Shown here: in pieces, positions 7,201 to 36,600 of the stretch
Layout of the letters: every line of letters begins with the position of its first letter
How positions within the stretch are numbered: the first letter of the stretch is position 1
Assembly: GCF_000003815.2 (NCBI RefSeq)
Contig: NC_049993.1
Location: 10,912,623-10,976,622 of the forward strand
Direction: 5' to 3'
Length of the DNA stretch: 64,000 bases
Source: Branchiostoma floridae
Taxonomy: Eukaryota; Chordata; Leptocardii; Amphioxiformes; Branchiostomatidae
Translations under genes and position numbers: made by a program
The notes under the pieces: model-generated
Database searches by the model: none
Seen by the model: the letters and a program-made list of their open reading frames with translations, nothing else
Told to the model about the DNA's origin: nothing

Positions 7201-10200
7201 CAATATACAAAGAATGGGAAAATTGTAGCTCAGGGTATCTTAGTGTAGTTGAGAAAAATAAGTTATACAGTTATACAGTTATAAGTTATACTGTATGATA
7301 TAACAACCCTTTGTTTGAAGTAAAATGGTATCCTCCATGGATTTGGATATTTTGTGACTAGAAGAGTTCTGATCTTTTTTCAGCTGACTTCTCTCTCGGT
7401 TTCCTCCAGATGTAGATAACTTATGCCGAGAGTATGACAACGGCACGCCGCTGCACATCGCTACCACAAACCTCTGCTTCGAGGCTGCTCGCTGCCTCCT
7501 CCAACATGGCGCTGACCCAACGATAAAGGACGGAGCCGGGCGCACGCCTTTAGAATGCATTCCAGACACATCAGGCCTGGACGCCACGTCAGAAACTGCC
7601 ATCGTTGCCACAAAAATGCGAATCTTGCTGAAGGATGCAGAGCCACTGACATTGCAGAAAAACGCACCTCAGTACGACATGCCGAGCTACGAGACTGTAT
7701 CAGGGAAGGTGCTGCTGTCATCCAGGGGGCTGAAACTGGGGGAACGGGTCATCATCGGGGGAGTAAAGGCAAGTTACTAAAAAGCATGATTTTGATGTTT
7801 GTTGTCATAGAGAAAGTTATGCTCAGCATTATGTTCTATTGAATAGAATCTAGTTTGGCTTTTGATATGTGCTGATTGCTGAACATAAAAGATGAAATAT
7901 TTTGATTCCAGGAACTTACTGTAAATGCAGAAATATTCGCGGTGGATTAATATTCGCGGTTTTCGCGGCGGCCGCTTCACCGCGAAATTAAATCCACCGC
8001 GAATATTTCGTCTGCTGGCGCCGCCTAAGGTGCCCCTTTTCCGCTCCATGTAAATACTACTACTGTCTTTGTCACTGTACAATGAAATGTTGGACATACT
8101 TACTAAGGTAAAGTCTTGACTGAAGACACACATGTAATTTTTTCATACGACCAACTGTATTACAGTACTGTACAGTATGTTCACCATGATACAAAGGTCG
8201 TACTACTGTATACTATTACGTATTGAGAGGGTAGATACGATTAGATCAGTAACAGTGGCTCACGCAAGAACAAGTCAAAAGCATGGAAACTGTTCTATCC
8301 GTCTGTATAGGACCCTTACCGGGTAACCAGAAAGTGTTTTCCGACTGGCGGTTTGTAGAGGCGCCGGGTTTTACACGGCAGTTCGTGACTACAGTGCAGT
8401 GCTGAAAATGCATTGAATTTCGCGGGATGGCGCTACCGCGAAATTAAATCCACCGCAAAATGTCCATTTTGCCGCTACCGCGAAATTAAATCCCCGCGAA
8501 ATTAAATGCATTTACAGTATTTCAATGTTTGAATGGAAAATCTATAACAAATCAACTTCAATTGTGCACAATAAAAAGGCATGTAAGTCAGTTTAATTGG
8601 GACTGAAGCACCAAGAAAAGTGCCGGGATGGAGATTATTTCCCTACATATAATAACAGAATAAAGAATTTTTTTCAGATGGGCACGCTCCGATTCTGTGG
8701 CACGACAGAGTTTGCATCAGGCGTGTGGGCTGGGATTGAACTGGACGAACCTGAGGGGAAAAATGATGGCAGCATCGGTGGGATCTACTACTTCAAATGT
8801 GCTCCTAAACATGGTGAGACGTGTTCTATTTTTTTGTAGAACTCATAATTACATCAGAGATATAATGTTATACAGTTACACTTCAAGATTTGCTTTTGAG
8901 GAAGTTGGCGGTCATTGTGAGGCAACATTCTAGATGAGTTCTATGTTTTACATGGAAACCAATTGTTTGCTGTGGGTTTTTTTTTCACAGTTTGATAGAG
9001 CACTCTTGATATTTCCCTACAGGCATCTTTGCTCCCCTGTCCAAGATCACCAAATCTAACTCCCCTGCCACCACCCCTCGGGGCAGTCGTCCCTCCACCC
9101 CCCAGCGCCGCAGGCTCTCAGCACCAAAGATGGACTTCTCACACGTCACCGCTAGGGTGGAAACAGGTGGGGCAGGAAACATCAGGAAACAACAAATTCA
9201 GTCTTGGAAGTGCACTAAGTCTTGTCTTTTGATTAGGCTGATGATAACAGTTCTCATCCAATATGCACAGAAGACAATGAAACAGACTCCATATTAGCTT
9301 TCAGGAAGTGGTAATAGTAATCATTCAAGTTGCAAAGAAAATGTGTCCATGCCATATATTCTATTATGAATAATAGTAAACTAGACAGGTATTAAACACA
9401 CAAAAATGTTCATGTTTGTCTCATAAGAACCAGGTTTGTTAATTGTTGTCTATAACATCACCATGACACCAGTATAATCTTAGTAGGTTATAATCCAATT
9501 TTTCCCTTCCTTTTCTCTTCAAGCTTTTTTTGGGTTCATTTGATATGAACTTTTCTATTGATTCCAGGACTTCGGAAGAGGTCATCCAGCATGACCTCTG
9601 AGCCTGGAGAGCTAGAGGTCGGAGACAGGGTCATCGTGGCAGGTCAGAGGACAGGGGTCATCAGGTTCAGTGGGAAGACTGACTTTGCTCCAGGTAAGGA
9701 TGGAGACATGTTGGTAGTGATTATTGCTGGAGATGTAAGTGACAAGACTAGACAAATGCTACATGTACAAGACAATTTGGTACCTGTTGTGGCTGTATGA
9801 TTGTACATGTGTCTGCATCACAAGCAAATCCAAATTCCATGCAGAAGTAAAGTAGAAGTAAAGTAGAAGTAAAACTTTCAGACATCTGACATATTGTGTA
9901 CCCTTGTTTTCCCCAGGCTGGTGGTACGGTGTGGAGTTAGACAAACCCCGGGGGAAGAACGACGGCTCCGTGTCAGGGGTTCGTTACTTCAGCTGTGAGC
10001 CCATGAAGGGTGTGTTTGCACCCCCCTCCAGGGTCACAAGGTAAGTCAGAAACAAGAGTGGAAGCCCAGGTACAAAGATTTTCTCTAGTGGTTGTCAGGA
10101 CCTAAATGAAATGGTTGCAGAGTTCATGAATTTTCTTTGATTTAGTCTACAAGTTACACAGCACTTTTTTTCTTTGATTTATCCTTTGTGCCTTTGATTA

Positions 10201-21634: not shown

Positions 21635-24600
21635 TCACGTGACGTTGGTCACCATGGTAGCTCTGTTGACGTACTCGTCGAAGATTGTGCACAGCGCCTT
21701 GTAGATTGTAGCGAAGGAGGGCCGGTTGGACGGAACCTTGGACCAACATCTCCTCATCAACTGGTAGACCTCGTGCGGGCAGGTGTCAGGCTGCGATAGG
21801 ACGTTCCCGTCACGGACGTATCTGTGGTGACGGGAGGTCATAAAATAAGTCTGGAGGGTCACGTGTGTAATAGGTTCAACGGGGAACAACCATGTACTGC
21901 AGTGTAATAAGTTCAACAGGGTACAACCAACTATTCAACGTAGCGTAATAAGGTCAACATGTATTGTAGGGCAATACACGAAGTTCAAGGGAGTACAACT
22001 ATGCATGGTAGTGTAATAAGTTCAACAAGTTATAACCATGAAGTGTACTGTAATAAGTTCAAAAGGGTACAACCATGCACCACAGCATGAAAAATTCAGC
22101 AGTGGGTACACTAGTGCATTGTAAGCAGCAAGACCCCTGAAGTCAAAATTGACTGTAATAGGCATTATAAATACACAAAAAAATTATTAAGAAATGTAAA
22201 CAGATAGTGGACCGCACCTGATGACCTCCTCATGTGTCATGCCATAGTAGGGCTGCAGAGCGAAGGAGTAGATCTCCCACAGTACCACCCCGTACGCCCA
22301 CACGTCTGACTCAGTCGTGTACTTGTTGTACAGTATAGACTCTGGCGGCATCCATCTGATCGGCACCGCGTCATTTTCATCTGCCTTGTAGTAATCCGAG
22401 GAATACATCTGCCGTGCCAGTCCGAAGTCTGCGATTTTTACCGTTAATCCTTCGCCGACCAAGCAGTTCCGCGTGGCGAGATCCCGATGTACGAAGTTCT
22501 TCCTCTCCAGGTATTTCATCCCGGAGGCGATCTGTTTGGCAACGTGAAGCTGATCGATGTTGTCCAGTTTCGGCAGGGTGGCCGTAGTCCTGCCCTCCCG
22601 CCGGATCAAGTACTGGCTGGAGCTGGACAGGCGCAGAAACTCGTTCAGGTCTCCGTGACCCATGTACTCGAACAACAGGCACAGTGGCCTGCCGACCGCG
22701 CACACGCCCAGCAGTTTCACAATGTTGGGGTGATCGAACTCCGACATGAGCAGAGCCTCGTGCTCAAAGTCGCGCTGCATGTCTAAGCTGGCCTCGTCCT
22801 TCAGCATTTTCACCGCGACCATGATGTGGTCCTCCCCGGGCACGATTCCCGGAGCTTTGGCCTGCGAGAAATGATAGTTCTTGTTCAGACACTTGGCCTG
22901 CGAGAGATTACAGGGTTAAAAGGGTTAAACTAAAAGAATCATCATGCACAACATTCAAGAAGATCACTTGAGGTTACTGTTAGAATTGGAAAAACTGACA
23001 ATTTCTTCTGTATTCTGTCATCTGGCAATACATAAGTTGAGAGTTTTTCCATTCTTTTAATTTCATCTACACCTACATCTACTAAACTAAAACTCAAAGC
23101 CAAGGACAGATATACCACAAATCAAACAGACAGTAACGTTAATGGTAATGATACAGACCTGGAACACCCTGCCAAACGCGCCCTCCCCCAGGTCACGTAT
23201 GAAGACGATGTCGTTCCTGGGATACTCCAGTTTCTCCAGTTTGGGGTTCATGAGGGTGGGGGCCGAGCGGTGGTACATGGGGTTTGCTGGCAGCTTGTCC
23301 AGCATCAACTCATCAGGGAGGGGAGGGGGGGACGGTCCACTGAAGGGGGAGAAGGTTCAAACAGCGATTAGTCATCATACACAGGAGTGAAGAAAGGACT
23401 GACTCTAATCAGGCTTCTCTGACTTGTGGAAAAATATTTTTATAGTTTTTCAGATCAAAAACTCAAGGCAACTTGCAAAATAGTAGGACTTTTGCCTGGT
23501 AATGTGTCCTTTGTCCCGTCCTGTTCTTTCACATTTTGCTGTTTTGGGTCCCTCCAATTGATTTCATCACGGCAGAGACATCCTTTTTTTTTACAAAATA
23601 AAACTGGGGATATGGTAAGAATAGCTGTGCTTTCATTTTATGCTGTTTGAATCATCCAAAAGAAAAGGTGAAAGTAGAATAATTATTCATGTATACATGA
23701 AATACAGCATCATGAACAAAAGTACTCTCAATGACATTCCATATCAAGCATATAAAAGAAAAATGGCTTAGCAGATAAACAAACCAAGATGCTCAGCTGG
23801 TAACATATAACCTGGAGTGTTAGAAAGACGCCCAAAGTTTGTATACACAAAGTGGTCAGCCTCCAAATAAAAACTCAAAGCCAAGGCCAGATATATAGAC
23901 AATCTGTCAAGAAAAGAAATTCAGACTGAACATGCAGAAAACCACTAAGAAAATCATACTGAAAACCTAGTACAATCAAACCCACACCTGAGTAACAAAC
24001 TTCAAACAAAGATTTTGGTTAGTGGAATGAAGAACAAAAGAGCAACTAAATGGAAGTTGGTGGCAGTTAAACAAAGACATGCATGAAACAAAGTGGTTAT
24101 CAAGTGAAACACAGCACAGCAGACATCCTCCCACAAGAGGAAAACAGAAGAGCTAGAACAGACCGTATAGAATTGAAGGTGTTACATGGAGGAAGGCCAA
24201 CACCCCTATAGTATAAGGAGCAACAAAAAGCCATGAAGATGTGAACACAGCGCCTCATTTGATAATGAAATGAAACAACACTGTGCAAACTCTGTGTTTA
24301 ATGTCTCTCATTTCATTATTATAGCTGCTCATAATCAAACCATCTAAAGACATCACTTAGAGACAGTTACAGTTTTCTTGCCATACAGCAACTTTTTGTA
24401 ACTTACGAAATAAAAATGTGATGGCTGGAAAACAGAACCTTTTACCGAATTCAAGTGCAAAGTGGGATATTCAGATTTTACAGAATGATGTAGAAGTGAG
24501 GAACAAAAAAGCAGGAGAAGTGGAAAGAGGACGGTACTGTACCCTCCGTTACTGGTGGCAAACTTGGGAACAGGGGATTCCGAAGCTGCCTTTTCCGCCT

Positions 24601-27600
24601 TCCTGTCATGGTGGAAGTGAGAGACAGTTACAGGCAGGATGGACAGAAGGAGTGAAGAAGGATAGGAAGAAAGATAGAAATGAGAACAAAAACCTCTGTT
24701 GTTCAGTCACTCTCCCTAGTACATAGTTCTTTGTTAACAATGGCCACAATAACAGTTAGAAAAAAAACAAGGGTAAACTGTACGCATCACTCAGCCCAGA
24801 ATAAGAAGAGAAAGTACCGTATCTGTGGTTTGGAAACCAACAATGTCATATCTACAATGTACCACAACAGAGGTTTTCTAAGCAAAGATTGTTAATGAAA
24901 TTTTGTGTTTGAAGAGGGAAACACAAGAGATCTTCACACAATTAGCAAGAAATTACAAGAAATGTATTGTTTATGTTGATATTAAGAGTGTTGTATTAGA
25001 CACAGGGCTCAATTTAGCTTAATGAATTGATAGTCCATACAAATGTAGTTCATAGCCCTTGGCTCTAGTAGAGACTGTACAGATTTTGAAAAAAGGCTGA
25101 CAAATGCCTCTTCTCCGTGATCAGACCTAAACTGAGCCCTGCCAAACACAGAAGACAGTAGTTGAATAGAAGAGCGGTGATTACTCAGATGGGAGTTTGG
25201 AAGGTGTGTCTTCTTCCTCCCTGGTGGAACGCACACAGAGAGAACAACATGGAACATGGTTAACTTCTGCAGTATCAACAGCAGGGTTCATACACCATGG
25301 AGTCAGATTCTATTCTCACATCTGTGGACTGACTTTCAAGTGTTATACTTCCAAAACTGCCTTGTAATTTTGAAAAAAAAGTACTGTAACACTAGTCATC
25401 TGTTTTTGGTGTATAACATTGTTTTATAAAATTGCATATGAAAGCAGTTTAATTTTTTCCATAAAAGTGACACAACATTTTTGCTCTCCAATCTTGATTC
25501 CATGTGTATGAAGCCTGATTGATGTATGCACCTATCAAAGTAAACCCCACAGAGAGGGGTGGTGTCATGACCCAATCTACCATGCAGAGTTGATGCATGA
25601 TTCTATATGATTTTCTCCTATAACAAAGCTGCATGTACATTATAATACATTGTGAAGATTATTTCAGATGTCCTTCAAGTCTTCTGAGCTACGAGACATG
25701 TCTTAAAGAAACGTGCAAGGAATGAACACGTGGCAGAGGAGACAAAAGTGACAAGAACAATGGAAGAAATGAGTGACTGAAGGATGGGTCACCAAGCTAC
25801 AAAAATAATAGGATTAAAATTAGATTAGATGGCTACATTAAAAGTAACATGTAGTACTAGTCCATCTTCAAGATGTCATTAAAAACAAAGGTATTTTTGG
25901 AACAGATAGAAAGCTGCCAATATGTATGAAACAAAAGCAAAAAAAAGAAAAAGACGATTCTCAATCATCACAAGTTTTGGCAGCAGCAGACAGAGGTACA
26001 TGGTATGATGTTAAGATCTAGGTGTGAGGGAACCAAGGAAAGGTATATGTTATGCAGTGAATTACATGTAACACAGGTTAACATCATGTGAATGGTAATG
26101 ACATCACTAGCAGCTGTGGAGTAGACATCATTAAAGACAGTAGCAGTGTTAATTGCATCGTATCCTACTGTGAAATGAAGTTTGTAATGACAATGGAATG
26201 ATAATCTTAGTATCAGTTCATCAGTCCTGGTGATCCTAGTGTGCTGTGGGCTGGTCCAACAGAAAATATGATGATACAATTTTTCCTCAGATTCAGAATA
26301 AACGATTGTGCCTAAACTGTTGTAGTTTTGGGAACACAGGCATTTTCTTTTAAGAAAAAGCAAAATCAAATGAGATTTTGGGAAATGTAATGTTACCTTC
26401 ATATCTTCCAAAAATTGGTAACGCTAGTTCACCTTTATCCGTGGGGTTACCTTTATCCGTTGTCTTTAAAAACAGCACATTTAGGAGTATTAAGTCTGCG
26501 GACAGTGGTTTCAAATTTGTAGTCGTTTCAAAATATTCCAATTTAAAACCACCATCTGTCGACTTCATATCCCTAAATACGTTTTTTCTTACAAACAACG
26601 AATATAGGTTACCCTCGGATAAAGGTGAACCAGCGGTACAACCCAAGAAATTTTTTTTTCAAAATACTTAGACTAATAATCATTTTTAAGCAATCCTACA
26701 TGTTTCTACAAAGCACACAGTCAATCAAAAATAGAAGCCGTGGCATTTTCTGGTTGAAATTAGTACCAGAAAATATAGCTTTACAGATCAACTGGAGCCA
26801 AGACAGAACAGGTCCAGCCATGTAGCCACAGAGACAGTTGAGTCATTGTAAGTTCTGAACTAAAGACGTCCAAGGTGCTGAAATGCCTTCCACTGTCATG
26901 TACAGAAGATGTGAATGTGAATGCGCCATTTTCACAATGTTCTTTGCTTGGCATGCATTTCTAAAAAATTTTGCTCAAGCATACAATTCTCCAAGAACTT
27001 AAAGTTTGGTCTGCATTTTGATGGTGGCTGTTCAGAATTGCAAGTGCTTTCCACAGTCATGTACAAATAATTTGAATGTGAATGTGCCATTTTCACAATG
27101 TTCTTTGCTTGCATTTCTAAACTTTTTTGCTCATGCATATAACGGTTAATTCTCCAAAGAACTGTATTTTGATGGTGGCAGTTCAGCATTGGATGGCTTT
27201 AGTTGCTGGTATGTCTGTGCCCAGCACATGGATACAGCAGGACAGACGGCCTGCCCGTGCCAGCGGAGTGACTGTACCTGTAGTGGGGATAGAAGGGCAG
27301 GGAGCGCGGACGCAGAGAGCTACAATACACAGAGGAAAGCGGGGAGGGACAGGAGCGGAAGCTGGAAGCACGAGGAGGAGGAAGGTCGTAGCTGACAGCT
27401 TGCGCAGCAGCAGAGGCGCTGCAAGTACAGAAACACAGTTAGACTCTTCCTGTTTTCTCTCTTACTACCATTTTACTCTCTATCACTTTTGTGAATACGT
27501 TCATCAGGCTGGTTGATTATCAGATATTGGAGTTTTTCTTGTATCCAACTAACGTTAGGTCACCTTTATCTCCTTAACCCGCTGTATAAAAAAAATGTGT

Positions 27601-30600
27601 AATATCTAGGGATTTCAGGTTAATGCACGTGGATTTCAAATTGAAATATTTTCAAAATATTGCAGTGTGAAACTACTGTCTTTCAACTTGACGATCACAA
27701 AATACCCTATTTTCAAATACAACGGATATAGGTAGCCCCACGGATAAAGGTGACCTAACGTTACATGTGAGTTGTTCTCCCTACCTCCCAATTGTTTTGT
27801 TAACTATTCTGCTACCTTCCTAACTACAGGATTGTATAGAGCACAGAGGAAGGTAGAAGAAGGATAGCTTAAGCCTTGAGATGTAAGAAGAACAGCTTGT
27901 TTGGGTACAAGGAAACTTCGATATCTCAACCACTTTTCCTCACATGCCTTTCATATGGCACATGCTGTTTTACTGTTTCTTGCTCTACTAGACACTTTCA
28001 CAGAATTGATTTCTTCATGCTTCTGCCAAAATCATTTTGCTTCAAATTACAAGGATGTTCAGTGACAATCTTAAGCTTTGACACTTTTACAGACATTGTC
28101 ACATAGCAGAAGTGTTATAATTGTCTTCTACAAACCAGCTATTCAGGAGAAAACAGTTCTGAGTATGCTGAATTGTGACTCCAAAGTCATAGTGCTAGCT
28201 ATACTATTGGTCTAAGCATTTACAAACATTTTGTCACTTTTGTCTCGTCTGCAAAACATAACAGCCACCTATATGTACAGGTAAACAGTGATGTGTGAGC
28301 AAGTGCAGGTATTTTTGTAACCCTACTACATATGATCTAACAAGACTGCACATTGACTACTACATGTGTACATTGTGACCATGTACAAAAGATGAACATT
28401 TTAGTCAAAACAAAAGTCACCTCAGTGCAATTCTAATCAACTATTACTACCAGCAAGAAACAATCATTAAATTTTGGTGATGTCTCATTCACTTGTTATA
28501 GTCAACCATTCATTCATTGGTCCACTAAGCAAGCATTTACATTTGAAATACAACTTCTAGAATCTAAACCTATATTCAACATCATTGGTGAATCACTGCA
28601 ACCAATCAAAATTGAGAACACAGTTCACTGCTTGGCAGGCACTACTATGCTGATCACAGGGGTGACTCAAATGTTTTACTGGTCCAGGAACAAAAAGAAT
28701 TCTCTTTAAATTTCAAAGCATTCCTTACTCCGTAACTGTTAGTACTAGGTGCTATGTTAGACTTATGTTCATGTAGAGAGAATGACTTACTTCCTGCTGT
28801 ACTGCTTGAGGAGTTTGTTACACATCATGAGGATACAGACCACCAGCACCAGGACCACACAGCCAGACACCGCTGAGATCACGATAATCAGCGTGGTGGA
28901 CGACAACACGATGTTCTTCTCTGCTACCTGCAGCTCCTCTGTTGCCACAGAGTCTAGCGGGATGGTGAAGTTGTCTGGGGGAAAATTTATGGCTTTAAAG
29001 TTAGTTATTTTGGGGTGTAGACTTTTCAGGATCTCTATGAGAGTAGAACAACATAATCAAGAAAAGAGATGTTTAAATCAACATAGAAAGTTAAGTTGGA
29101 GCATATTACAGTGTACAGCACTGTGAATGCACACAGTAGCTACAGGTTAAGAAAAAAGTATTGGCAGCTGTCAGACAGAGAGAGAGAGAGAGTGAGTGAA
29201 TGGATTCTGTGCAGGGTTGTCATGCAGCCTACCGCTGAACACATTCAATTTTAGAAAAGCAAAACTTGGGGGTCTTTACCGGTCATTTTTACGGGTCCTA
29301 TCACCTGCTTGACAGATCTCATAGTCTTGATAAGTAGTTTTGAAAGAAATCATGGACAATTTAGAGCAAGGCATTAACTTTTTCTCTCTCTTGTATAGGT
29401 TGGAATATGATATATCCTTAAAAGTTAAACACCAAATGGACTGTAATTTCATATCAACCATCTTTTAAGTAGCATGCTGCTTTCAACCATGCATTGATAC
29501 GGGACCTACAGCTAGCAACATCCCTGCAACACAGCATGCCCATTTGTTTGTTTGTTTGTTTGTTTGTTTGTTATACCTGACTTGGGGTCAGCAGTACCCT
29601 CAGGTACCACTAGGGGTCTCTGCGTGCTCCCAGCGACAGCCTCTGCAGGTGATTGGGCGTTGTTTGCCTGAGGAGGGGCTGTGGTGGCGCGATGGAAGGG
29701 GACAGAAGAGTTGGAGATATCTGTTGCAGAAGGAGGCACAGGAGAAGGGGGGCCTGGGAGGGATGGAGTGAGAGAGAGGGAGGAGGGAGGAATAGAAGGA
29801 GAGGAGAGGTGGAGAGAAAACACAAGTACACCCGGTTTGGTTCATTGTCTTCGTCATTGAGGTCCAAAATTGACAGGAAATGGCATGACTGGTTGGTTGA
29901 TGGGAAAAATGATGGAATTCTGACACAAAATCTGCAGGCAACTGATTGGTTGTCAAAAAAGGGGAAAAGGGGCAAGGTCAACTGTATGAATCACAAAAAT
30001 GATACTCAAATCAATGGAATATACAAGTTGATCACCTACTACCTTTAGACAACTAAAAATTATGTTATGTTATGTTTTGTGCTGAAAATGTATAAGAATT
30101 GTTGTGAAGTGCAAAAAGTTAACAAAATGCTGAAAAACTGATAAAAAAAGCAGATTACAAGCTTAATGCCAAAATGGGACGAACAGGAACTGCCAGTAAT
30201 ATTGACTACTACCTTGAACATGAAAAACTTAACATGGTAAAAGAAACTTTACCTTGCCATGTAATGCCTTCCATATCTTTTAAGGCACAAATATTAAATA
30301 ATGGAAAAAACCCTGCTCAATCAAACTTAAATCTACTTTGCTTCTATAAAGCTATTATTCAAACTTAAGCCAAAGTGGAAGAAATATGTTTATTCCATAC
30401 ATTTATTTCACAATCATAAGGTTTGTATTAAGGACAATACCTTTACTTTCACATCAGTCAAAAAATACAACTATCAAAATGTCCATTTTTTCAGCGTGAG
30501 TTATCTTCATATACAGGCTTCTATTGCACAAAAATCTGTTAATCATATAGCAGCCAAAAAATTGACCATTAAATTGTGTTTAACAATGTTTGTCATAGAT

Positions 30601-33600
30601 GTGAAATGTACATATGTTGAGACTCAAGTGAATACATCTTCAATTTTTCAATTAGCCATTTACTGTGCATACTGAAAAATTTTCTGTACGTCACAGGTAT
30701 GAGTGCTTCCCTTTACTACATGTTACAGTATTATACTCAACTGTAAAATAAATTTGAAATCATGAATCGAATTAGGTAAATGTAGAATCCAGTAATGACA
30801 AATTAACTACATTTTCCTACACCGTGCTACATTGTGCATGTAAACAATACTAATGCATCAGTAAGAAGTTCTTGACTTGTTTGTAAGAGCCACAATTGAG
30901 CAGTTAAAAGCTGGTTTAGGGACCCTAAGCATAATCCTATACTGCTGGATGGACAGTGATTCATGCAGATTTCACCTGTCATCATGCCCACCAGCAGTTA
31001 GACAAAGCAGATGCTTAGGGATATATTACTACTTGCCCTCTGTCACCCAGACAGATGCATTCTTTTAGAAACAATAAACTATCACATGCAAAAATAGAGT
31101 CACACGACTGACATCAGCGAATTCTGTACAACATGAAATATGCTTGTCTTACATTTACACCCGTTTCCATGGAGAGGCACGCCCAGCCACATAGAACGTC
31201 ATATCAGATCCCAAATAAACCTCCAAGGTCAATAATAAACATTCCGGATGAAAATTCTTCACATGGTTCTAAAGAAGTCCAACCAGAAACAAGGCCATGC
31301 ATGCCTAGGGTACAGTTACTGTGGTTTAGCTAGGGCAGGCATTCAGACAAAAACAGAACTTCTAATGTTACTTATCAGGTAAGGGTTAACATAAACCAAT
31401 TACAATTATCCATTATGTATCTTTGATCATCCTAAATTTGATCTGTCTGTAGATATTTCCTGAAATAAAAACACTGAGTCACCATTCTTTGTTTTCATCA
31501 ACCCTGTCAAATCTATTGCATAGATAACATTTCAATCTTAGTAGTAGTCCACTGTCAGTTTTTCTCCAAATCTCTACTTAATTCTGTTACTGTAGTTTTC
31601 TTTCTTTCAATCTTAGGGCTCCAAATTCAATACAGAGATCTTGAAATTTACATGTGCAACTTACTTAGCCACAACAAAATTTGATGCAATAGAAATTGTT
31701 GAGATTTCAACTTTTACATTAAAACAAAATTGATAAAATGATAACAGTAAACAATTTTGATGGTTGTACTTAGATATCAAATCATTTCAGGACTAAGCTG
31801 TATTATTTTGATAAAAGAATATAACTGCAAATCAACAGTTTTGGGGGTATCGAATGTGATCCTAAACAGCCACACATCACTCAACAAGTGTAAACAGCAA
31901 AACTACACACACACCAAACAAGACTTCAGGCTAAAATGCTAGCTTAGACTATCTTTTTAGTCCAAACCCCTAACATATCAGTACACTTAGCATCCAGCAA
32001 CAGACTAGCAAAACTATCATCAGGCCCTTCTGAGCTGAGAGAAGTGAACTCCCTCCAGTCCCGCCCCGCCGTGCCTCATAAGTTACAGGTGCATCAGTCC
32101 CTTCCCCTCTCTCATCAGCTCCTCTGCTTTGCTCATCAGTCCCTCCCGCTTCCTCATCAGTCCCACCCCCCTGTTCATTAACCCCGCCCCCTTGCTCATA
32201 AGGCTCCTCTAACTCTTCCTCCAGCTGTGCGATGGTCTCTTTGGCCGACTCGAGTTCCTTAGTCAGCATGTTGTAACGTGATGTCATCTCCTTCTCTAGA
32301 GCTTTTACAGTTTTGTCCAGCCTTCTCAGCTCGCGGTCTGTTTCTTCTTCTTCCTCCGCTAGCTTGTTCATGTTGCGTACGAGAGTCTGGAGGACGTCCC
32401 AGAGTGTCGTGATTTCGTCCTGCAAAGCCTGGTTGCTAGGCTGGGAGGGGACAGGACTGACGCTGACCTGATTGGTTGTGGCTGTTGTTTCGTCGTACCA
32501 ATCGCCACTCGGCGTGGTACCCGCAACAGTGGTCGTCACGTCACGTTCTAGCTCTTCCTCAATAGCCCACTCAATTTCACTTTCAACTTCTTTTTCAAGT
32601 TCTTCCTCTTTCTGTTTGGCCACAACTTGCATGTCTAGGTCGATAAAGGTTTCTTCAGTCCCGTCTTCCATCTGGGCTATTTCAGGAGGGAACCGGGGCA
32701 AGGCAGTTACGCGCCAGTCCTTTCTCGAAGGCGGAGTACCGTGTACCTCGTCTTGTGTAGGCGGGGTTCCTCCGTACCACCACATGTACTCCTCCTTACC
32801 ATCCGACCAATAAGGAAAGTCATCCCTGCCGAGCGTCCAGGTTTCCTCGTTTTTGTCGGCGTCAATTTGTACGGTACTTGTGTCTTTGATGGAAAGAAGG
32901 AGGAATAGACAGAGAGGAGAAAGAAGAGGGGAAGACAGACACAGGAAGGGAGCCTGACACATCATTCTACTAAACCTTCAAAGCCTAAGAAGTGACAACG
33001 CAAAATGGCTGGATAGATTATTAACACACATGGATGCTGAACTGAAAAAATAATTGGCACAAAAAAACAAACATGAGAAATAATGAGTTGGAGACACAGC
33101 ATGTATGATGAAAACTGACAGGACCAAACTAAACAAAACTACTAAATGACAGGGGACAAAAACATCAGGATCACTCAGCACTTTTGTCATCGATTTTCTT
33201 TGTACTCTTGTTTGTCCATTTCCTTGAATATTTGCTGAAAATTCAATATTAAATGGTATTTATTTGCTGAAAATTCAATATTAAATGGTATTTACAAACT
33301 CTTGAAGTGAAGTTTGTTCTTCCTTCCTTGTGACAGACATCCAACTCACAAACAAGACTTAAACTTCTTTCACCAAGGTAGCAGGGTTATGTCTGTAGGT
33401 TTAAGTCAAACTTTTTAAATTCTATGTCTGTAGGTTTAAGTCAAACTTTTTAAATTCCACTGCCATATTGTCTTTAGTCCATAGTTAAGTGTCTTTAAAA
33501 GGCACAATGTAAAATGGATCAGCATCACATGGCTGACTGTACAGGCCTTGTCACCATGGCAACCTGATCACAGCCACACCTACCGTAAAGAGATTTACAC

Positions 33601-36600
33601 AAGACAGTAGAGTTGACATTTCTTCCAAGGGCAGAAATGTCTGACTATTGCAATGTATAATTTGTTAACCTCCCTCATGCATACCCACGTTCAAGTACAA
33701 GATACGTGTCAACAATGCAGTATAAGAGAATTCATCTCCACTGGTGGCAGTAACTAGGTTTCCCATTAGGTAAATCACTAAGCAAAATCAATTGTAAATG
33801 GGAAACCTTGTTACCTGTGATTTCTGCCACAAGCGGAGATAAATAAGACTGTAATAGTGTATTGTTGACATGTATCTTGTACTTGAATGTAGGTATGCAT
33901 GAGAGACGTTAACAAATCACACATAGCAATAGTCAGAAATTTCTACCCTTGGAACTTGGAAGAAATGTCATCTCTGCTGTAACAGTTGTTCTCTGTACTT
34001 CATCAGTTTGACATAGTGACACCCATGTGATACTGATCCACTTGACAGTCCTCTGAAGACATTATGATACACTGGTTAGGAACTGTAAGTAGTATGTTCT
34101 GTGACTTACCATCCTCACAGCGGGGGATGTTGCATTTCTCCCAGCGCGTGCGGAGGTTGGTGGTGTAGCACCAGGGCTGGGGCTCCTCACCCCCAGGGTT
34201 ACGACAGCTGTTCTCTGCGTTCTGTAGCTCAGGGAAGTATTCAGGTAGGCGGTCGTGCTGGTGTGGCTCCTGTGAGACAAGTGATCAGACATTTTTTGAT
34301 CAACAACGAATGATATTTAAAAGTAACATGAACATACTTAACATTCATTTAACAAATCTATAATTCTAAGTAAATAGGCAAGCAAATGTCAAAATTAGAC
34401 CATTCTATAACTCTCCAAGAGACATTACATGAATAAAACATGATTTGGAAGTTTGTGGTGAATGAAGAGGACTTTTTATCTTTAGTGATGACAATTCTCT
34501 TCTGTTTTATGTAAGTTAATAACTTGTAAATCAGAACTGAACATTGCTACTGTAGCTCCCAGCTGTACTGACCTGAGCTGCCCAGGGTTGGCAGGGATAT
34601 CCTGACTCAGTAACGTTCAGCGTACCCTGGTAATATCGGCCCTTCCCACGGTAACAGTCAACTGGATGGAGCAAAAGCAACATGTAAGATCAACAGTTGC
34701 ACATGAGTTAATGGATGTTATCTATGGCAAGATCTTAATGCAATACATGTAGATCTTTGATAAGCACCTAGTAATCTAATGTAGCAGTCATCAGCAACCA
34801 AGGTAGGAAGAGAAACTTCTCAATTGCTGCAATTTTTTTTTCTTTTTTGCATTTTGGTTTTGTTGGAAATTTGCTTGAGATGTTCTATCATGATGTACAG
34901 TAGAAGCCTGAGCTAATTGCCAACAGATTACCGCACACTTCTGTTAATTGTGCCGAATCCCCAAATCTCAAACCGGGGCATTCCTGCTGGATAACTTCCT
35001 CTTATTGTACCACCCAGATAATTGCACGAAATACACTGGCAAATGGGGTGTGCAATTAAACAGCTTCTACTTTAATTAGGATAATGTATGATGGCATGTC
35101 ATTGGCAAAGGGCAGAGGCAGATTAACTGGACAATGATGTCAACTTGACAGGGTCTCTGGCAAAGATAAAGTATACATGTACATGGATCAAAATCATAAC
35201 TTGATTTCCTCCTTTATTTTCAGGACACTGGAGCACCTGTCATACATGAAATAGAACATTTGTCCAGTTCTCGACCAAAAATAGAATATACAAGCACAAT
35301 GACCAACAACATTCTTTCCGCTTGTCGCCACTCCGACAGATGACTATGCCAAATACGTCTCTCCTCCTCCATGATCCACGATTAAAGTCGGGTGACAGAC
35401 TGTGGCGAGAGCTGCCTGTCACTTCCCAGACCTGGCAAAACACTTTCGGCTCCAATAATAGCTCCAGCAATGCTGAGCACCCCACTCTTCCCACATGGTA
35501 TTCCTCCCAGTTATTCATCTGCATTTTTCCCAAGGTTGATGATTCCGAGGTTAAGCGGCGGACTACACCATGGCACGAGACACGAACGCTGCCGATATTA
35601 TGCGCTCTACAGGATGGAACCCTGCTGTTATCTGCCCCAACCTTGTAAACGAACTACCACGCTAGATGTATCACAACAAGAGCTTCTCCCTATAAATTTT
35701 CACTGGCTCCTTGCAGACAACCACTGCAGGGGGCCTCAACTGTCATAACCGAGGCACATCCACCGCCTGCTGTCGGCATAGCTGGCATACACAAGCATGT
35801 TTTCCTTACTGAGGTATCAAAGTCGGCCATGTTTGCTCTAAAAACTGAAATAGAACCTTAGACCATCAACGCCCGGTAGGGGGTGGAGCATATATGCTGG
35901 CCACACTTGGAGCAAAAACAGCATGGGTGGGACAAGGACCAAACTTCAGATTCAAGGTGACACCAGTTGTCAACTGTCTCACTTTATTGATAAGGTCTGT
36001 GCTGCTGCTTTTTTTTCTTTCTTTATGCCAAGTCGATGGAATGTGGCATGATGGGCGATGACAAGGGGACAGCTGAGATTGCAACAACAAATCAAAGACA
36101 AGGCTTAAAGGTCGCACGAGAGGTCAAATAAGGAGGGCATCCTCTCTGTGCCTCTTATACAAGACAAACTAACAATAGAAATGGGAAAGAGACTCTGTCT
36201 TATACACATGCAAGTCTAACATAATCTGTGACTGTTTTTTGTGAGGAAGCAGGCAATTTCTTTCTTCTTCAATAACTAAGCATTACAGTCCAAATGTTTT
36301 GGTCTATGATACAGCAAAGTACAATACATTCTTTTTGACCTCTGTAATGTGAAAATCCATAATGGGATGATTGGAATAAGCTACAGGAGCAAATGCTATC
36401 TTATGATCACACTTACCTGTCACCATCTCTGACTTCATCTCTGTCAGGGGTCGTCATGGTAACATGGAACACAGATCAGATCAGGCAGGGTTAGTGATAT
36501 GGCATCATTTCATCACATCAGGTCATCATTTACATATTCATACAACTGTACAAGATTTTAGAACGTCCACTTTCCAAACGAACTAAGGCATGAAGCAAGG

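Follow-up and report, generated by a model that had tools for sequence, protein, structure and literature searches.

A conserved reading frame with a predicted coiled coil and a GPI-like end in an intron of an amphioxus MuSK gene

In the window, the whole stretch of 64,000 nucleotides of Branchiostoma floridae DNA that we analysed, an intron of a MuSK gene contains, on the same strand, what is near certainly a genuine single-exon coding unit, conserved in amphioxus. Among its possible uses we tentatively favour, at somewhat less than an even chance, a self-contained nested frame with a signal peptide, a coiled coil and a GPI signal. Two protein records carry the exon: P0001, muscle, skeletal receptor tyrosine protein kinase-like of B. 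floridae (1361 aa), and P0002, MUSK of Branchiostoma lanceolatum (869 aa).

The host gene is a MuSK receptor tyrosine kinase, by its domain set as well as by a kinase that lies nearest to MuSK. It spans 43008 to 21635 on the minus strand, and the phases of the 17 exons that we placed there agree. Exons for three Ig domains and Fz are followed by a mini exon, two exons for the kringle, one each for the stalk and the transmembrane (TM) segment, two for the juxtamembrane part and three for the kinase. Pfam found I-set in three stretches, Fz, Kringle and tyrosine kinase in this model, all above the cut-offs, and the top four PDB sequences for the kinase were all MuSK (8s9p, 9sn0, 1luf and 9snu). 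The order of domains, Ig, Fz, kringle, TM and kinase, is that of the kringle-bearing vertebrate MuSK of fish, amphibians and birds (PMC3927609, PMC6966886). The signal-peptide exon (MGRFGG...) of P0009, a B. floridae-like hybrid record, gave no exact-motif match on the minus strand of the window; the 5' end of the gene lies outside the window or was overlooked. The exons of the host gene that concern the frame are:

34110..34269, minus strand: second kringle exon of MuSK, with a phase-1 donor (ATG|GTAAGT)
29577..29753, minus strand: Pro-rich stalk exon of the kinase form, phase 1-1
28791..28974, minus strand: transmembrane exon of the kinase form; P0009 and P0010 agree at 61/61 positions
21635..23339, minus strand: juxtamembrane/kinase exons K1-K3, including NPMY

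Several pieces of this gene vary among records. The stalk exon at 29577-29753 is skipped in P0007/P0008, and P0001 contains a 12-residue exon and a 12-residue microexon (about 25185-25220 and about 24164-24205). A duplicated acceptor lies within the kinase at 22862-22897, where P0001 is 12 residues shorter, as if the second ctcgcag|gccaa were used.

In the intron that runs from the second kringle exon (34110) to the stalk exon (29753), the minus strand is open from 32977 to 31970 for 335 codons, a run with a probability of about 3e-9 given the background stop rate. An earlier note on this DNA had described an open exon running to a stop in the phase of the kringle donor, and we confirmed it: the 914 nt of 32883-31970, made up of 2 nt, 303 codons and the TAG stop, follow an AG and fit the phase-1 donor at 34110 (CED|D). 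The acidic, coiled-coil, repeat and hydrophobic C-terminal segments that it had listed are likewise all present there. The frame of 331 aa that begins further upstream consists, in order, of a signal-peptide-like start, an acidic part, a coiled coil, a repeat and a GPI-like end:

31970..32965, minus strand: self-contained reading frame, 331 aa plus TAG, conserved in P0002 to residue 301
32885..32965, minus strand: 27 signal-peptide-like codons; the same nucleotides, 79% C/T, would serve the supposed acceptor as its pyrimidine tract
32883..32884, minus strand: supposed 3' splice site, AAAG|ACA, phase 1; the intron would end at 32884 and the exon start at 32883
32426..32884, minus strand: residues 28-180, the acidic and Ser/Thr/Pro part; P0002 shares 106/122 and 31/33 residues in two segments of it
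32204..32425, minus strand: predicted coiled coil of about ten heptads (residues 181-254); 70/72 identical in P0002
32092..32202, minus strand: 21-nt in-frame repeat; 28/42 identical in P0002, with a 5-residue in-frame gap
32045..32065, minus strand: GGTGGSS, candidate GPI attachment (omega) site; P0002 exits after its first base, judging by phase
31973..32023, minus strand: 17-residue hydrophobic C-terminal end (mean Kyte-Doolittle 2.95), followed by TAG at 31972-31970
30389..30407, minus strand: two AATAAA hexamers, at 30407 and 30394, some 1.56 kb past the stop but ahead of the stalk exon

The predicted coil, a region picked by eye, gave a heptad score of 18.4, which none of 2000 shuffles reached. 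Its 3-4 heptad pattern exceeds what composition produces in this shuffle test, as expected of an extracellular coiled coil. We rejected the acidic stretch before it as a further coiled coil, with 1122 of the 2000 shuffles doing equally well, and we also rejected a known domain in the tail, every Pfam match being below the cut-off. Across 32100-32999 the G+C content is 0.50-0.53 and the CpG o/e 0.63-0.79, compared with 0.32 and 0.13 in 33000-33299; in 31800-32099, which holds the GPI-like end, they are down to 0.43 and 0.31. The codon score of the whole tail was 0.213 in this frame, against 0.143 and 0.260 in the alternative frames, and that of the final 30 codons was −0.306 against 0.005 and −0.209; neither here nor in the signal part did codon usage single out a frame.

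Our protein searches covered 5.8 billion proteins, with 7997 or 8000 candidates scored in each and lengths of about 182-2381 aa together. Among the candidates scored, the exon was present in P0001 and P0002 only, and no vertebrate MuSK had a counterpart of it; of 8000 candidates scored for it, none was a stand-alone record of about 182-580 aa. A match to P0009 in the exon-region search was read as the stalk, which the query overlapped, and added no further holder. The first 811 residues of P0001, from MFDCN to the last before the window stop, are identical to the window model. They include the 34110-32883 junction (kringle CEDD-TSTV) that the earlier note had predicted, and the ending which it called hidden is not so, the B. 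floridae MuSK record already carrying the frame behind the kringle. P0001 differs from the predicted model in what follows: it runs to SVLIC and then, as C-PPSP, into the stalk, TM and kinase. To judge from the protein set beside the window DNA, this exit falls at TGTT|AG, after the first base of the stop codon; the site is neither GT nor GC, and it looks to us like a model forced past the stop.

In a second amphioxus species, P0002 supplies an ortholog of the frame that includes the ATG start, with the frame kept and an in-frame gap only. This record starts MMCQ..., without Ig, Fz or kringle, and keeps the kinase. It leaves the frame at EARRG|PPSP, in phase 1, for the stalk, TM and kinase and so is without the hydrophobic, GPI-like end; the exit position in the window genome reads GGG|GCGGGA, a poor GC donor. 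P0002 and the window frame agree at 27/27 upstream residues; the figure is 106/122 for the first part, 31/33 for the linker, 70/72 for the coil and 28/42 for the repeat. These identities can be set against a scale from P0009 and B. lanceolatum P0010, which share 345/348 residues in the kinase, 88/91 in the kringle, 138/147 in the CRD and 50/59 in the stalk. On this comparison, we therefore consider the frame to be under protein-level constraint. According to PMC9673378, the B. lanceolatum annotation used RNA-seq assemblies together with protein hints from a B. floridae annotation, and P0002 probably comes from it. Because of these hints, the gene models of P0001 and P0002 need not be independent; their sequences are independent of each other. 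The juxtamembrane part of P0002 contains a 26-residue hydrophobic insert on the intracellular side, odd for a receptor kinase and apparently made of an extended JM2 donor and a microexon in another frame, which suggests that P0002 is a mixed model.

In the eight other amphioxus MuSK cluster representatives (P0007-P0014), behind which stand 46 member sequences outside the comparison, the kringle is joined to the stalk (six) or to the TM exon (two), and the exon is used in 0/8. Since the acceptors of the exon, the stalk and the TM exon all fit phase 1, the kringle donor is a branching point.

The beginning of the frame is a separate matter. The junction at 32883 given as the exon start by the earlier note occurs in the gene model P0001, but the acceptor that the note called strong reads ttctttccatcaaag|A and is the only non-YAG site of 18, the other 17 ending in CAG or TAG. 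With a rough matrix, this acceptor was outscored by 12 of the 17 others in the gene model and by the AGs at 33041, 33036 and 32984, within 160 nt upstream. A start inside the exon, at ATG 32965, had been overlooked: the frame continues upstream of 32883 through the pyrimidine tract to an ATG-ATG at 32965, and a leucine-rich stretch is encoded; the conserved MMCQ...SIK segment resembles, by eye, a signal peptide. This openness is in itself no argument for coding, because pyrimidine tracts often read open; 5/17 of the other acceptors are open over at least 28 of 31 codons upstream. The ATG and the 26 residues that follow it are nevertheless identical in P0002. Simulated as free intron, such a 27/27 identity had a probability of 0.32, 0.05, 0.009 and 0.003 at 2, 5, 8 and 10% nucleotide divergence, or of 0.34, 0.06, 0.012 and 0.004 with pyrimidines only interchanging. 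It would thus be unlikely for an intron unless nucleotide divergence is about 5% or less, and coding identities of 0.67-0.85 (repeat, stalk) suggest that divergence between B. floridae and B. lanceolatum is not tiny; no published figure for the neutral divergence of this pair turned up in a literature search. The 10 residues after exon JM2, which RefSeq-type models skip, are also identical in P0002; intron sequence close to exons may be well preserved, or these residues may belong to a true alternative exon. The conserved ATG and signal-peptide-like codons suggest that translation starts inside the exon.

At the other end of the frame, the sequence is GPI-like. GPI signals consist of a small-residue cleavage site, a short spacer and a terminal hydrophobic stretch. 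The earlier note had judged GGTGGSS and the 17-residue end to fit this pattern, and our counts show such an end to be rare by chance: of the 30529 simulated stops that followed 34 or more open codons, 28 had an end as hydrophobic (mean hydropathy of at least 2.3 over 17 residues) and only 3 also had a small-residue site. Within the window, the corresponding counts were 5/1042 and 2/1042, this frame included. By our own rule, which is not a published predictor, the frame has the small-residue site, the spacer and the hydrophobic end and no cytoplasmic tail. Such an end speaks for the exon being a terminal one in B. floridae. Between the coil and the stop we found no GT donor above 1 bit, while three GC sites there and one GT site below the stop exceed this value. 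The phase-1 GT sites in the hydrophobic end (TCT|GTTGCT, TAA|GTGTAC and TAT|GTTAGG) are all below 1 bit. Still, weak GT donors are no bar to onward splicing, because 4 of the 16 donors of MuSK itself (stalk, JM1, JM2 and Ig3c, by the rough matrix) also score below 1 bit and there are five phase-1 GT sites in 32260-31961. As for the hydrophobic end being the TM of the receptor, spliced to the kinase, this is unlikely given the separate TM exon at 28974-28791.

How the exon is used was weighed among several architectures; our confidence in each is a judgement, not a computed figure, and the remainder goes to mixtures. If the frame is a self-contained nested one, translation would start at ATG 32965 and the frame would be read alone within the MuSK intron. 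Guided by its predicted N-terminal signal peptide, the chain would enter the secretory pathway and exchange its hydrophobic C terminus for a GPI anchor close to GGTGGSS; at the cell surface, this acidic protein would oligomerise via the coiled coil of roughly ten heptads. Transcription of its own, signal-peptide cleavage, GPI attachment and oligomerisation are all inferred. The start of this frame is conserved in P0002 and its end is absent from there. In its favour, the 27/27 start is better kept than weakly conserved coding parts such as the stalk (50/59) and the repeat (28/42); the sole non-YAG acceptor, the forced-looking exit of P0001, the GPI-like end and the eight representatives that skip the exon also speak for it. 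Against it, the candidates scored included no stand-alone record, codon scores favour no frame, weak donors are usual in this gene, both holders put the exon in a MuSK with kinase, the probability of 27/27 is still 0.32 at 2% divergence, and the JM2-adjacent 10 residues are identical too. The exon could instead be an alternative last exon, spliced from 34110 to 32883 and ending below 31970, that yields a kinase-less, GPI-anchored, oligomeric ectodomain as a decoy or co-receptor, in which case MuSK's own signal would serve the GPI form. This was the proposal of the earlier note. We agree with it on the MuSK host gene, on the exon being coding, on the coiled coil and on the GPI-like end; the kinase-less, GPI-ended transcript is so far not supported, P0001 and P0002 both keeping the kinase. 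The fitting phase, the exact junction in P0001, a GPI-like end beyond chance, the two AATAAA at 30407/30394 and a decoy receptor of similar build known for another kinase, sFlt1 (PMC5610261), all argue for it, yet the AAG acceptor is weak, the conserved signal-peptide-like codons would fall in an intron, neither P0001 nor P0002 ends at 31970 and 0/8 of the other representatives use the exon, so we regard it as doubtful.

We likewise think it unlikely, if possible, that the exon serves a coil-bearing kinase isoform, as an alternative first exon with its own signal peptide or as an internal cassette, spliced to the stalk; here the coiled coil would replace or extend the ligand-binding ectodomain and pre-dimerise the kinase. 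P0002 is built in this way and P0001 also runs exon-stalk-TM-kinase, the annotation to which we attribute P0002 used RNA hints (PMC9673378), and weak donors are normal in this gene (4/16 below 1 bit). However, the exit of P0002 is a poor GC donor in the window genome and that of P0001 is neither GT nor GC, P0002 could be a mixture of models, P0001 and P0002 may not be independent as gene models, and the GPI-like end would be left unexplained. A dual use, with the conserved 81 nt acting as the polypyrimidine tract behind the kringle splice and as the signal peptide when transcription begins in the intron, appears quite improbable to us. If true, it would give three products, namely the kinase receptor, a coiled-coil decoy or co-receptor with a GPI anchor, and a kinase that carries the coiled coil but no ligand-binding domain. 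A frame without function, either open by chance in an intron or a decayed insertion, would agree with the exon being unused in the eight other MuSK representatives, with no Pfam family above the cut-off and with codon scores that favour no frame, but the frame-keeping conservation in a second species and the probability of about 3e-9 for 335 open codons make it very improbable indeed.

For a kringle-fused GPI decoy, the closest known working principle would be that of sFlt1. We know of no coiled coil and no GPI signal in sFlt1 forms. In soluble VEGFR1 (sFlt1-e15a and sFlt1-i13), intronic acceptors and poly(A) sites give kinase-less receptors (PMC5610261). Both would be receptor kinase genes with an intronic 3' end that omits the TM and the kinase, on the amphioxus side putatively; the sFlt1 forms are secreted, whereas the kinase-less amphioxus form is hypothetical. 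In open-licence PMC papers we found no report of a GPI-anchored or coiled-coil form of MuSK or of amphioxus MuSK isoforms. In vertebrates, MuSK acts with its partners to build the neuromuscular synapse, and its role in non-vertebrate chordates awaits investigation (PMC12445529). A conserved coiled-coil, possibly GPI-anchored protein made by the amphioxus MuSK locus would be a candidate lineage-specific regulator; alternatively, the locus would offer a natural case of coil-driven kinase dimerisation. Should the gene instead be nested, the fused models P0001 and P0002 would be wrong and would mislead comparisons of MuSK architecture.

Other elements were observed around the frame. The intron between the kringle and the frame holds a foldback, MITE-like element at 33508-34047, with arms at 33623-33728/33849-33954 (106 nt, 87% complementary) within outer inverted arms. 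Just upstream of the frame lie two perfect tandem duplications, of 32 nt at 33229-33292 and of 35 nt at 33388-33457. On the opposite strand, at 7388-7780 (plus), there is an ankyrin-repeat reading frame that probably belongs to a neighbouring gene.
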